Source: Natrinema salaciae (lineage in GTDB: Archaea > Halobacteriota > Halobacteria > Halobacteriales > Natrialbaceae). Taken from it: a stretch of DNA of 64,000 bases. Position 1 is the stretch's first letter, and each line of letters begins with the position of its first letter. Made by a program: the position numbers and the translations under genes. The DNA is taken from NCBI RefSeq assembly GCF_900110865.1, contig NZ_FOFD01000002.1, forward strand, positions 62,001 to 126,000, written 5' to 3'. Below are positions 4,348 to 32,378 of the stretch, one piece after another. The notes under the pieces are model-generated. The model was not told the origin of the DNA. It made no database searches and saw nothing but the letters and a program-made list of their open reading frames with translations.

Positions 4348-4527
4348 ACCGGAGAGGACGACCACGAGCGGGGAATAACTACCGCCGCCGGTACCGGTGG
4401 GTCGCTCAGATCGGGAGAAAAGCGGTCGTGTCGCGTGATCACGGCGGTACCACGATCGGAGCGGAATCGTCTGCAACCGCACGGAAACTGCGAACGTACC
4501 GACGCGACGCGTTCCCGGGTTCGTCCG

Positions 4528-4561
4528 AATAGATATATCGATATGTGATTTATCCGTTCGG
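4528..4561 (+). repeat. AT-rich inverted repeat, left copy
   Basis: A 34-base element with the perfect palindrome ATATCGATAT followed by GTGATTTATCCG. It matches the reverse complement of 7197-7230 at 27 of 34 positions by eye, 25 of 28 in the inner part. The two copies face each other around the DUF5805/recombinase pair. Either terminal repeats of a small mobile element or two copies of a regulatory/promoter element (GATTTAT resembles a TATA box) would explain this. Confidence 0.55.
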
Positions 4562-5449
4562 GATGGGACGACAGCCGATTCCGAAACCGGAAGCGGATCG
4601 GGCGATATCACCCCGATACGCGCCGGTGACGGTCGGTATCGCGCTCACACCGGGTCCGGGGAACAGTGACGAGGCGTGCGCCGCTCCTGTGGCCGCCGGC
4701 CGGTCGCAGCGCCCCAAATCGCGACACACTGCGATTCTGAGCGGATTCGGATCGGGGTCCGGTTTTCCCCGCCACAGCGACGTATCAGCCTTCGAGAAAC
4801 CCGCTACAGGCCGAGTGAAGACGACGCTGCCCGAACTCTTCGACGTAACAGCAGGGATGGCGCGTACTTGCAGGGAGCCGATTCGGTCCGGCTCGACTCT
4901 CGACTCGCTGGAGCGTTGCTGCGTCCGGTTCACCGGCTCGAGCGATGGAGCCGACCCCCGAGGCCGTTCCGCGAGCCGAGACGCCGGCCTGGCATCTCGT
5001 CGGCACCGATCGACGAACCGCGCCTCGAGACGACCGCGTAGGAACCCGTCCGAACCGGACAGCGCCGCGCTGGAAGTGCCGACGACCGGACGGCGGACCA
5101 CGGGCGTCGACGCTACGAGAACTTGCCGGGTTCGAGCGCGTTCAGCGCAGCGGCGGTCCGCTCTGAGTGCTCGTCGGGCGATCGACGCTCGGACTCGGGA
5201 GTCCCTCGACCAGCCGAGGAACCACTCGTCGATACCGGGTCGGACGATCGGACTCGAGCGACCATCCGCGTCCGAGCGAGCACCGTTCGGGGGGACCGAC
5301 CGCCGACTCGCTCGAGCCGATGTGGCGGGCCCAGTCGAGCCGACGGTCGCCGATCGAGAGTAGACTCGGGCGCGTTCGTGGATCGGATTCGACGACTCGG
5401 TACCGTGGGCGAGGACGGTTCGTCGGTCGGCCGGTCGATATCGTCGATC

Positions 5450-5542
5450 AAATATCTCAGATTGTATCACCATTCGCTCCAACGTTAGATCTCGATGTAT
5501 GTCCCCACGAATGCCAAAAATATCTGATTATGGTGCCAATTC
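5450..5542 (+). repeat. Imperfect direct repeat upstream of DUF5805 gene
   Basis: AAATATCT-CA-GATTGT (from 5450) and AAATATCT-GATTAT (from 5518) are near copies 68 bases apart in an AT-rich stretch of otherwise GC-rich DNA. They could be tandem regulator sites for the DUF5805/recombinase operon. Judged by eye only. Confidence 0.3.
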
Positions 5543-5631
5543 TCGCAGTATAGTAGTCCACCAAATCGAGATAAACTCACTTAGCTCGAATAATGGGTAG
5601 ATTGAAGATCACCGCGTCTGATGGGTACGGT

Positions 5632-6027
5632 ATGAGCGATTCGGCGGACACATCTAGGACCGCTGTCAAAACCTACGTCCCGGCCTACCAGAAAGCGGCC
5701 TGGCAGGACCACGCCGACGAACTGGACATGAGCCAGAGCGAGTTCGTCCGAACGATGGTCCAGGCGGGGCGACAGGGGTTCGAACCCGGTTCAGCGGAAC
5801 CCGATTCCACCGACCCAGACCCCGGGGGTAACGGCCTCGAAACACAGGTCCTCGAATTACTCTCGTCTGACACGTACTCGTGGGAGGAGCTGCTCGAGGC
5901 GGTCTCCGACGACATCGAGTCCCGATTGGACGAGACGCTCGAGGAACTGCAGTCGACCAACCGAATTCGATACAGCGGACGCCACGGCGGATACACGACC
6001 GTCGAGGGTGGTGGCGATGGCGACTGA
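5632..6027 (+). CDS. DUF5805-type protein paired with recombinase
   Basis: 131 residues. The N-terminal half, SRTAVKTYVPAYQKAAWQDH then LDMSQSEFVRTMVQAGRQG, has the look of a ribbon-helix-helix-like DNA-binding module and resembles DUF5805. A Gly/Pro/Asp linker and a C-terminal winged-helix-like segment (SWEELLEAVSDDIESRLDET, then GRHGGYTTV) follow. The Met at 5632 was preferred to one 13 codons earlier because conserved sequence begins there. It overlaps the recombinase gene, suggesting that this protein regulates or assists the recombinase. Confidence 0.65.
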   Translation: MSDSADTSRTAVKTYVPAYQKAAWQDHADELDMSQSEFVRTMVQAGRQGFEPGSAEPDSTDPDPGGNGLETQVLELLSSDTYSWEELLEAVSDDIESRLDETLEELQSTNRIRYSGRHGGYTTVEGGGDGD

Positions 6028-7063
6028 GCCCACAGCCGATCCCCCCGCGGACGTGACTGACCCGATCGCGTACTTCCTCGACGACCAGCGGTACCACGGC
6101 AAGAGCGAACGGACGCTCGAGGCCTACGAGCGCGTGCTCCGACGGTTCGAGGCGTTCGTCCGGGCGGAGTTCGACGGAGACGCGGTCGGCGCGGCCACCC
6201 GACGGGAGTGTATGGCCTGGATCCACTCGCTGCGCGGGTCGTTCGAATCCAGCACGATCGCGACCTACGCCTCGTATCTCAACCGTTTCTACGATTACAT
6301 GACCCGCGTCGGCGTCTTCGACGACAACCCGATGGCGCTAGTCATGGAAGAGATGTCCGAATCGATCGATACGAACCCGACGAGACGCGACATCTCGGTC
6401 GGCGAGATGCGGTCGTTCGTCGACTCGATCGCCCATCCCCTCGAACGCGCCGTCGTCGTCACCCACCTGAAGACGGGAATGCGGGTCGGCGAGCTCTGCA
6501 ACCTCGATCTTCGTGACCTCCACCTCGAGATGCCGCCGCTCGAACTCGAGTGGACGCCACGCGTCGGACTCGAGCAGCGGCCGTCGTCGGTGTTCGTTTC
6601 CGCCGAACCGGCCCGCGGCACAGCCGTCAACGGCGAGGAACGGACGGCCTCGAACAAGCGAAAGCGGGACACGATCGTGCCGGTCGACGACGAACTTCGG
6701 CGGGTGTTGCTCGAGTGGCTGGCGATCCGTCCGGACGCGGTTTCGCCGGCGCGACCGCTCTTCCTCGACACGCGGGATTCGTGGGGCGAGCGGCTCACGC
6801 CGTCGGACGTCCGCTATATCGTCGCGAAACACGCTCGAGAGCGCGGCTGGTACCGGACCGGCGGCGGAACGCAGGAGAACGTCACGCCCCACTACTTCCG
6901 GCACTTCTTCACCACACATCTGCGGGATCGAACCGGCGACCGGGGGATCGTACAGTACCTCCGTGGCGACGTCGCCGGGGACGTGATCGACACCTACACC
7001 CACAACTGGGGCGACCGCGTTCGTGAGACCTATCTCGAGTGTATCTACGCCGTGACCCGGTGA
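6008..7063 (+). CDS. Tyrosine recombinase (XerC/XerD-like integrase)
   Basis: 351 residues if the GTG at 6008 is used; ATG at 6017 is equally possible. A SAM-like core-binding domain (SERTLEAYERVLRRFEAFVR, about residues 30-115) precedes the catalytic domain. Visible catalytic residues are Arg in TGMRVGEL, Lys in the RKRDTIVP turn, His-x-x-Arg in PHYFRHFFTTH and the nucleophilic Tyr in VIDTYTHNW. All are intact, so it should be active. It overlaps the DUF5805 gene by about 20 bases and lies inside the 4528/7230 inverted repeats. Confidence 0.85.
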   Translation: MVAMATEPTADPPADVTDPIAYFLDDQRYHGKSERTLEAYERVLRRFEAFVRAEFDGDAVGAATRRECMAWIHSLRGSFESSTIATYASYLNRFYDYMTRVGVFDDNPMALVMEEMSESIDTNPTRRDISVGEMRSFVDSIAHPLERAVVVTHLKTGMRVGELCNLDLRDLHLEMPPLELEWTPRVGLEQRPSSVFVSAEPARGTAVNGEERTASNKRKRDTIVPVDDELRRVLLEWLAIRPDAVSPARPLFLDTRDSWGERLTPSDVRYIVAKHARERGWYRTGGGTQENVTPHYFRHFFTTHLRDRTGDRGIVQYLRGDVAGDVIDTYTHNWGDRVRETYLECIYAVTR

Positions 7064-7196
7064 CGAGAAACCAACGACCGACGCGGTCGACGCCAGTCTC
7101 TTCGTCCGTTTCGCTGTCCGTTCGTCCAGACGTTTTGACCGGCACGCAACGATGGCCAGTGATTACTCCGTTCGAAGTAAATCTCGCTGCCTCAAA

Positions 7197-7230
7197 CCGA
7201 CCGTATAAATCATATATCGATATACGAATG
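7197..7230 (-). repeat. AT-rich inverted repeat, right copy
   Basis: Reverse complement counterpart of 4528-4561. Its core is the perfect 12-base palindrome TATATCGATATA followed, on the minus strand, by TGATTTATACGG. It sits directly against the end of the transposase-like remnant, as expected for an element boundary, but regulatory use cannot be excluded. Confidence 0.55.
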
Positions 7231-7232
7231 TT

Positions 7233-8707: not shown

Positions 8708-9634
8708 CTATCGGCCGACGACGAGCTCCGTCTCGAGGTCGCCGCCGTTCAGCAGCGATCGGACGAGGTCGACCGTGGGGGTCGTCTCCGCCGTGTTCTC
8801 GAGCAGTACGGTCTCGCTCGGGAACAGTTGCTCGCCGAGCAGGAGGCCGTGGTCGCGCGCGGTCGACCCGGTGACGGTCAGGTAGACACCCAGCCCCGCG
8901 TCGGCGATGGCCGCCTCCTCTTCGCGACCCTCGTCGGGGTAGTAAAATTCGATGTCGTCGAGCGCCCGCGTTCCGAGCACCGCCTGTACGAGCCGTTCGT
9001 ATCTGGGCTCGATACACAGCGGCCCCTCGTAGGACTCGAGGAAGTCCCGATCGATCGACCCCGCGGCCGGTGCGACTTCGGGCCCGGCCAACAGCGTGTG
9101 GTAGACCGTATCACCGAGCCCCGTGACGACCTGCACGTCGGTATCGGAGGGGTTGATCCGGGCGTTGATGTCTGCGATCCGGTCGAGCGGCTCCGGCCGG
9201 AGCTCGACGACCTCCTCGAGAACGAGATCGGCGCTGTCGAAGCCGAGTGCAAATTCGTGGGTCCGGAGGGAGCGGAACGGCTCCTCGCGACCGACGAGCT
9301 GGATCGCCGTGCCGTCGGGTGCGCCCTCGACGTCCGTCAACGGGATCGTGACGCTGTCGAAGACGATCCGGCGCGGTTTCCCCGCGCGGTCGTCCCGCAG
9401 CAGGGAGTACTCGGGTTCGGCCGGATCGTCGACGGCGCTGTAGTCGGCGAGACGATGGTAGACGTCCTCCTCGGCGGGATCGACGGTGCCCTTCGTGAGT
9501 GCCTTTTCGTGACGAAGCGTCGACGTGATGTCGTCCGCGAGGTCGGGGACGTCGAGGCGATCCGCGAATCGGTCGAGCACCGACTCGAGGGGTCGCCCCT
9601 TCCGTGGAACAGCGATCGGTATCGTCTCGCCCAT
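8708..9634 (-). CDS. HisG-like (ATP phosphoribosyltransferase family) protein
   Basis: 308 residues. The start IPIAVPRKGRPLESVLD resembles the HisG N-terminus (basic residues of the phosphate-binding first strand). The C-terminal half, RYERLVQAVLG..., IADAGLGVYLTVTGSTARDH and SETVLLENT, follows the order of HisG (GLAD, then TG.T.R..GL, then the final strand). The middle is divergent and longer, so this is probably a paralogue with another ligand rather than the histidine enzyme. hisF is in the window but 13 kb away. No operon partner is evident. Confidence 0.5.
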   Translation of the reverse strand: MGETIPIAVPRKGRPLESVLDRFADRLDVPDLADDITSTLRHEKALTKGTVDPAEEDVYHRLADYSAVDDPAEPEYSLLRDDRAGKPRRIVFDSVTIPLTDVEGAPDGTAIQLVGREEPFRSLRTHEFALGFDSADLVLEEVVELRPEPLDRIADINARINPSDTDVQVVTGLGDTVYHTLLAGPEVAPAAGSIDRDFLESYEGPLCIEPRYERLVQAVLGTRALDDIEFYYPDEGREEEAAIADAGLGVYLTVTGSTARDHGLLLGEQLFPSETVLLENTAETTPTVDLVRSLLNGGDLETELVVGR

Positions 9635-32032: not shown

Positions 32033-32378
32033 CGCCTACGATCCTGTTGGCCGACTGAGTGAAAAATCAATCGGGTTCGACGACCGTCGTCGCTGGCGTC
32101 GTTCGAGAGCGCGAATTCGGTCGAGCGCGATCCGAGCGCAGGTTCGAACCGGCCGCCTCGAGACATATGAATCGTATATCGGTATATCAAATCCGGCTGG
32201 CCGGCCAGTTATCGAACTCGTCGACGTGCGGCCAGTGAGTAGCCGCTGACCCGACGGACGGAACGCCGCCGAACGGTCGCGTGCCGCCATCACGCCGTGG
32301 CCGCACCGACGGCACGAGTCGACGCGGTCGAACCACGACGCGAATCTATTTCACGTCCCGCGAACCAACGTCGACCAA
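32033..32378. other. Intergenic, divergent; carries third AT-rich element
   Basis: About 345 bases between the J-domain gene and menB. Apart from the element at 32170-32190 no coding sequence or RNA is recognised. It must hold promoters for both flanking genes. Confidence 0.4.
32170..32190 (+). repeat. Third copy of the TATATCGATATA-type element
   Basis: AATCGTATATCGGTATATCA matches the core of the repeat at 7197-7230 (minus strand) at about 16 of 18 positions but not its inner flank. Its presence away from the recombinase argues that the core may be a regulator site rather than only an element end. Confidence 0.35.

Follow-up and report, generated by a model that had tools for sequence, protein, structure and literature searches.

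The stretch of Natrinema salaciae DNA analysed here (the window: 64,000 nucleotides of contig NZ_FOFD01000002.1) carries an inverted pair of short repeats around a tyrosine recombinase gene, raising the question of whether the pair delimits a compact mobile or invertible unit, as a first sequence-only reading proposed, or represents a regulator site, an alternative which that reading left open. The pair is real and lies far beyond chance. The reverse complement of 4528-4561 is identical to 7197-7230 at 27 of 34 positions when counted by hand, the inverted-repeat search of the window reports it as repeat I2 (28 nt, 89%), and a 19-bp core pattern with at most 3 mismatches matches three times in the window and 0 times in 100 dinucleotide shuffles. 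The left element has its 27-bp core at 4527..4553 on the minus strand (46-bp profile match at 4526-4571, 51.4 bits) and faces outward, with an SDR gene on its outer side. The right element, with its core at 7205..7231 on the plus strand (profile match at 7187-7232, 55.0 bits), is likewise outward-facing, and the recombinase stop falls about 140 bp before it; both sites are members of the training set of the profile.

As originally described, a DUF5805 gene (5593..6027, plus strand; PF19121, E 7.8e-30) and the open frame of an Xer-like tyrosine recombinase, here called REC (6008..7063, plus strand; PF00589, E 1.4e-14), sit inside the pair. Translation of DUF5805 likely starts at Met 14, which is almost invariant and lies at about position 5632. 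Its predicted fold combines a ribbon-helix-helix (RHH) with a winged helix (pLDDT 72), the RHH call being based on the prediction, the helix layout and Foldseek probabilities, with weak Foldseek matches of the model to CdbA and CopG, all at E above 0.4. No paper on DUF5805 was found in the open-access literature searched. REC is related to XerA (PDB 4a8e, 5hxy) and scores 113.6 bits against XerA_Arch NF040815, below the cut-off of 220. Its catalytic R, H, R and Y are kept in 117 of 119 sequences, the remaining two being gapped at these positions, and at the catalytic Lys 117 sequences have K, one has W and one is gapped. The usual His/Trp (H/W) catalytic position is occupied by Asp in all 117 informative sequences, a replacement by which REC departs from the full Xer set R-K-H-R-(H/W)-Y.

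The remainder of the interior, from the left element to DUF5805 (4562..5592), has no counterpart found by blastn in relatives as far as about position 5500. The description of an 'empty' stretch holds for the part inside the pair, within a span (4401-5500) that lacks blastn similarity in 32 relatives, while the 'broken transposase fragment' reported beside the right copy is not borne out, the three ORFs there having no Pfam match at E<=1. In four genomes of the genus (L057, L067, L072, L076) a second, divergent DUF5805-REC pair, with REC 57-60% identical, occupies the left half of the module, and three of these also carry a third recombinase-like stretch. In one genome the left element and SDR gene lie about 40 kb from the recombinase (L080, G008:C1:1070330, and L069); from these coordinates, the module interior can therefore grow greatly.

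A pair of inverted repeats flanking a recombinase is the arrangement expected of crossover sites of an invertible segment, of the phiCh1/phiH1 type, or of the terminal repeats of a mobile unit. Comparison with related genomes makes this explanation very improbable. REC is matched in 58 of 61 genomes searched, with 81-92% identity in 28 same-genus relatives, and the recombinase is present order-wide, while the element recurs at other loci. The flanking markers, a PH-domain gene and the gene at 8708-9634, each kept its side wherever found in all 28 same-genus relatives, and the module has a single orientation relative to them in 28 of 28; what emerges is the same segment in the same place, not an empty site. 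At the family level, the orientation to the neighbouring gene does vary, being tandem in some clades and convergent in others, but a quick tree of the family places only one main switch, the tandem arrangement being the early state within the family and the convergent one a single change on the branch leading to Natronococcus, Natrialba and Natrinema. The orientation of the module relative to its neighbours has thus changed at least once in evolution, but rarely. An apparent orientation flip in Halorussus was traced to a paralogue, and apparently inverted interiors between relatives (L102/L108, L103/L148) to contig orientation.

The paired sites also lack the matched centres that crossover would call for. 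Central identity is 61.7% against 61.2% for permuted pairs (30 pairs). Among 71 pairs the central 6 bp (columns 30-35) are slightly raised, at 66.9 versus 63.8% (p 0.018), with no excess over the whole core (all 27 columns, 66.2 versus 65.3%, p 0.105), and identical centres occur in 7 pairs where 3.9 are expected. Because the paired centres are not alike beyond chance and orientation changed rarely, ongoing inversion is unlikely; the mobile or invertible unit was rejected on the combined grounds of genus-stable orientation, unmatched centres and order-wide conservation. From the original interpretation, the association of pair and recombinase stands, and does so throughout the order; the compact mobile or switching unit does not, and the regulator-site alternative fits better.

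One further observation, which speaks for an invertible or mobile unit, is that 12 close locus pairs have unrelated DNA from the outer edge of the element onward. Counted as ordered pairs, so that pairs repeat, 28 of 42 alignment breaks between close relatives that fall outside the site (within 200 bp) lie within 20 bp of it, and 4 of 22 do so on its inner side; at the left REC site 8 of 10 inner breaks lie within 40 bp, where its conserved inner flank ends. Taken as unordered pairs, the 12 with breaks keep 92% identity in the outer arm, and identity of the outer 45 bp falls to 33%, compared with 65% in 19 continuous pairs. These outer-edge breaks are compatible with a limit of selection as well as with an exchange boundary, and they do not demonstrate crossover within the core.

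The element itself is a conserved intergenic sequence of about 27-28 bp forming an imperfect dyad, with the consensus RTAAAYYNYATatcGCTATAYNRAATc derived from 83 sites that were taken from fetched loci and chosen by profile. The 46-bp profile was trained on 54 REC-flanking sites and the core profile on 63, from loci of the genus and family (alignment A1); evidence from outside the training set comes from loci of other families, RIO2 loci, a fixed pattern and viral sites. The fixed pattern RTAAAYYNNATNNNGCTATAYNNA occurs exactly in 203 of 243 genomes of the order, and the reversed pattern gives one match in one genome. With one mismatch allowed, 93 sites are found in 13 genomes against one control match; among further genomes, sites occur in 11 of 12, with two control matches, both in a single genome (G021). 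Sites of related species are not independent in these counts. Neighbouring sites less than 6 kb apart follow a strict orientation rule: of 31 such cases in 13 genomes, 29 are outward, one is --, one is ++ and none is inward. The search for further copies, suggested at the outset, thus revealed many other loci carrying the element. The third core copy noted in the window is also genuine (32168-32186); its 27-bp core at 32167..32193 on the plus strand scores 39.3 bits with the profile and stands singly between DnaJ (minus strand) and menB (plus strand). An orthologue lies near the same genes in other genomes of the genus, with a variable downstream gene, making this copy a conserved menB/DnaJ site. 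Both copies of the inverted pair are instances of an order-wide haloarchaeal DNA signal, not ends of mobile DNA. No description of the element was found in the open-access literature searched.

The loci bracketed by outward pairs are diverse. The profile search recovers an outward-facing right copy at all 32 REC loci of relatives and a left copy at 31 of them, figures that are partly circular, as the training sites come from the same genus and family. Of 16 REC loci from other families, none of which contributed to the training, 15 have the right copy and 13 the left. Across 80 named genomes, training genomes included, REC has the right site in 79, the left in 72 and both in 71; wrong-way matches occur at six loci only, mostly overlapping a true site. 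The RIO2 kinase gene is bracketed as well. With a profile built from REC sites only, 30 loci were examined, of which 29 belong to the window's genus, its own genome included, and one to its family; 29 of the 30 have an outward site at the low end and 28 at the high end. Among 24 RIO2 loci outside the genus, sites flank both sides in 17, one side in four (L129, L200, L205, L208) and neither in three (L193, L207, L209), the upstream site lying mostly 48-76 bp ahead of the start. A mononucleotide shuffle of 544 kb yields no match at the same threshold.

Of 150 exact sites listed from 48 genomes, 45 are less than 6 kb from REC and 5 are 6-12 kb away, one lies at RIO2, and the other 99 belong to further loci. 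A sample of 40 from this last group was fetched and inspected, with genes near sites called by a simple ORF script. Among these 40, outward pairs surround genes of several kinds: a DHH/DHHA1 gene, one for a DUF7838 zinc ribbon, one for a fumarylacetoacetate hydrolase, an operon of aspS and DUF5783, and members of a family of about 420 aa similar to Phage_integrase; a recombinase lies within 2.5 kb of 9 of the 40. Pairs confined to particular lineages surround such further genes or, in some cases, only non-conserved, non-coding intergenic DNA. Pair interiors at 16 loci gave no Rfam match to a structured RNA, and no conserved small gene was found in the interiors of the GNAT and DUF7551 pairs.

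Similarity to ParA appears within the fetched stretch at 5 of the 40 sites and beside several more. Element copies near ParA-like genes include L103, L107, L111, L140 and L353, several of them followed by a small partner gene. The ParA proximity bears on a further explanation, in which oriented pairs of the element would be bound as an architectural or partition site, be it a loop anchor, a domain boundary or a centromere. The strict orientation rule and the presence of the site on nearly all counted secondary replicons agree with such a role, but genomes hold only a handful of sites, and the accessible text of the Haloferax loop literature mentions no motif at loops. An architectural role is rated as improbable, though less so than inversion or mobility.

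Extrachromosomal elements carry the site too. At least one site is present on 21 of 23 secondary replicons from 11 multi-contig genomes, a count that omits G008, G014, G018, G022 and G024, several of whose contigs are without a site. Of 15 loci on secondary replicons, 10 have a tyrosine recombinase gene at a distance of 110-410 bp from the site, the recombinases belonging to several families and several of them being identified by eye from N-terminal sequences once representatives had given Pfam matches. One plasmid recombinase family, of about 379 aa, has an additional and weaker element inside the coding sequence (L125, L126, L136, L142, L152, L157). The pattern is further found in 63 viral contigs, of which 12 exceed 50% GC. 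In 7 of these 12 (L210, L222, L242, L244, L259, L261, L263) a start codon lies 0-6 bp beyond the outer edge; L210 and L222 represent one virus type, and the start codon of L261 is on the strand opposite the predicted genes. The viral sites stand at gene junctions, with no match to the recombinase queries used.

The reading ranked first, held tentatively and at somewhat less than even probability, is that the order-wide element is recognised by one host factor and serves as an outward promoter/operator, the pair forming a boundary of control. It is favoured by the viral geometry, by the promoter-like layout and by start codons being over-represented just outside the element. Before that edge, a BRE-like CGAAC lies at about 30-34 bp, a TATA-like RTAAAYY at about 21-27 bp and a second TATAY at about 7-11 bp, in the position of a -10 element. 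At 384 chromosomal and plasmid sites, ATG or GTG occurs 0-9 bp outside in 136, compared with 76 at 30-39 bp and 83 at 60-69 bp. Under the promoter/operator reading, transcription would start at the outer edge and run outward, and a single host DNA-binding factor would occupy both ends and govern this outward transcription, while the bound pair could insulate or repress the bracketed gene. The leading candidate for the postulated factor is DUF5805, given its predicted RHH and winged helix and its location inside the REC bracket. Several features count against the reading. The conserved block exceeds a generic promoter in length, about two-thirds of chromosomal sites lack a start codon at the outer edge, and close relatives often have unrelated DNA beyond it. 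In many genomes the right element lies between convergent genes, and the bracketed genes form no evident regulon, some pairs enclosing only non-coding DNA. The adjacency of plasmid copies to recombinases is explained more directly by a recombination site.

A recombination site is the substance of the main rival, ranked second and judged possible with distinctly lower probability. Here the element would be an Xer/dif-like core site for REC or its relatives, the outward pairs would be dif modules, and single sites would serve multimer resolution of chromosomes and plasmids. The 28-bp imperfect dyad can be read as 11-6-11, an operon encoding an R-K-H-R-Y recombinase is almost always in cis, and both the wide occurrence on secondary replicons and the nearby plasmid recombinases are in keeping with such a role. 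Against it, chromosomes carry several sites rather than one per replicon, a single consensus spans unrelated recombinase families, RIO2 is bracketed order-wide, and most sampled sites away from REC and RIO2 have no recombinase close by. The outer arm retained at the break points of close relatives, the invariant Asp at the H/W position and the recombinase-free viral junctions speak in the same direction.

A broader and more speculative possibility, rated a little below the dif-like site, is that the element is an ancient paired bracket which, read by the enclosed DUF5805/Xer-like module, marks off single genes through an oriented bridge or synapse. Such a system would be chromosome-wide, covering RIO2, recombinases, the aspS operon and others, and would have been adopted by plasmids and viruses. 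A strictly oriented, gene-bracketing signal found throughout the order should be directly testable in tractable haloarchaea. Haloarchaeal dif sites are posed as an open question in the accessible part of a Haloferax review (PMC7776575), and the element offers a concrete candidate site or regulator for haloarchaeal Xer-like enzymes; otherwise, it would be a boundary or promoter element common to cells, plasmids and viruses.

Comparison with known systems, made from the accessible text of each source, places the element near several of them. The intergenic repeats of halovirus HF2 carry promoters with a TATA box from -26 (PMC8707807), a precedent that counts for the promoter/operator reading. 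Like the element they are AT-rich, and under that reading the TATA box about 26 bp before a start close to the 3' edge would be common to both. They differ in that the only class II substring quoted there, CCCTTTAC, is absent from the element consensus, which led to rejection of the element as an HF2 class II repeat, and in that the element is mainly cellular and arranged in outward pairs. The phiCh1/phiH1 Int1 invertible region (PMC6210493) is set apart by the unmatched centres, the lack of tail-fibre partners and the genus-stable orientation seen here. Archaeal XerA/dif (PMC2958812) shares the AT-rich 28-bp imperfect dyad and a XerA-related recombinase, but the element has several sites per chromosome, and its recombinase falls short of the XerA_Arch cut-off and carries Asp at the H/W position; the accessible main text of that paper contains no word beginning 'halo'. 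The nearest published arrangement to the dif-like reading is that of the Acinetobacter pdif/xrs sites (PMC11705084), where single, varied genes lie between oppositely oriented dif-like sites, the xrs pairs being often inverted with divergent central regions. The haloarchaeal pairs present a similar layout, enclosing different genes between inverted sites whose centres diverge, and they too occur on plasmids, with the difference that the haloarchaeal element is chromosomal, order-wide and archaeal, its Xer binding is putative, and it brackets the housekeeping gene RIO2 as well as the recombinase operon.
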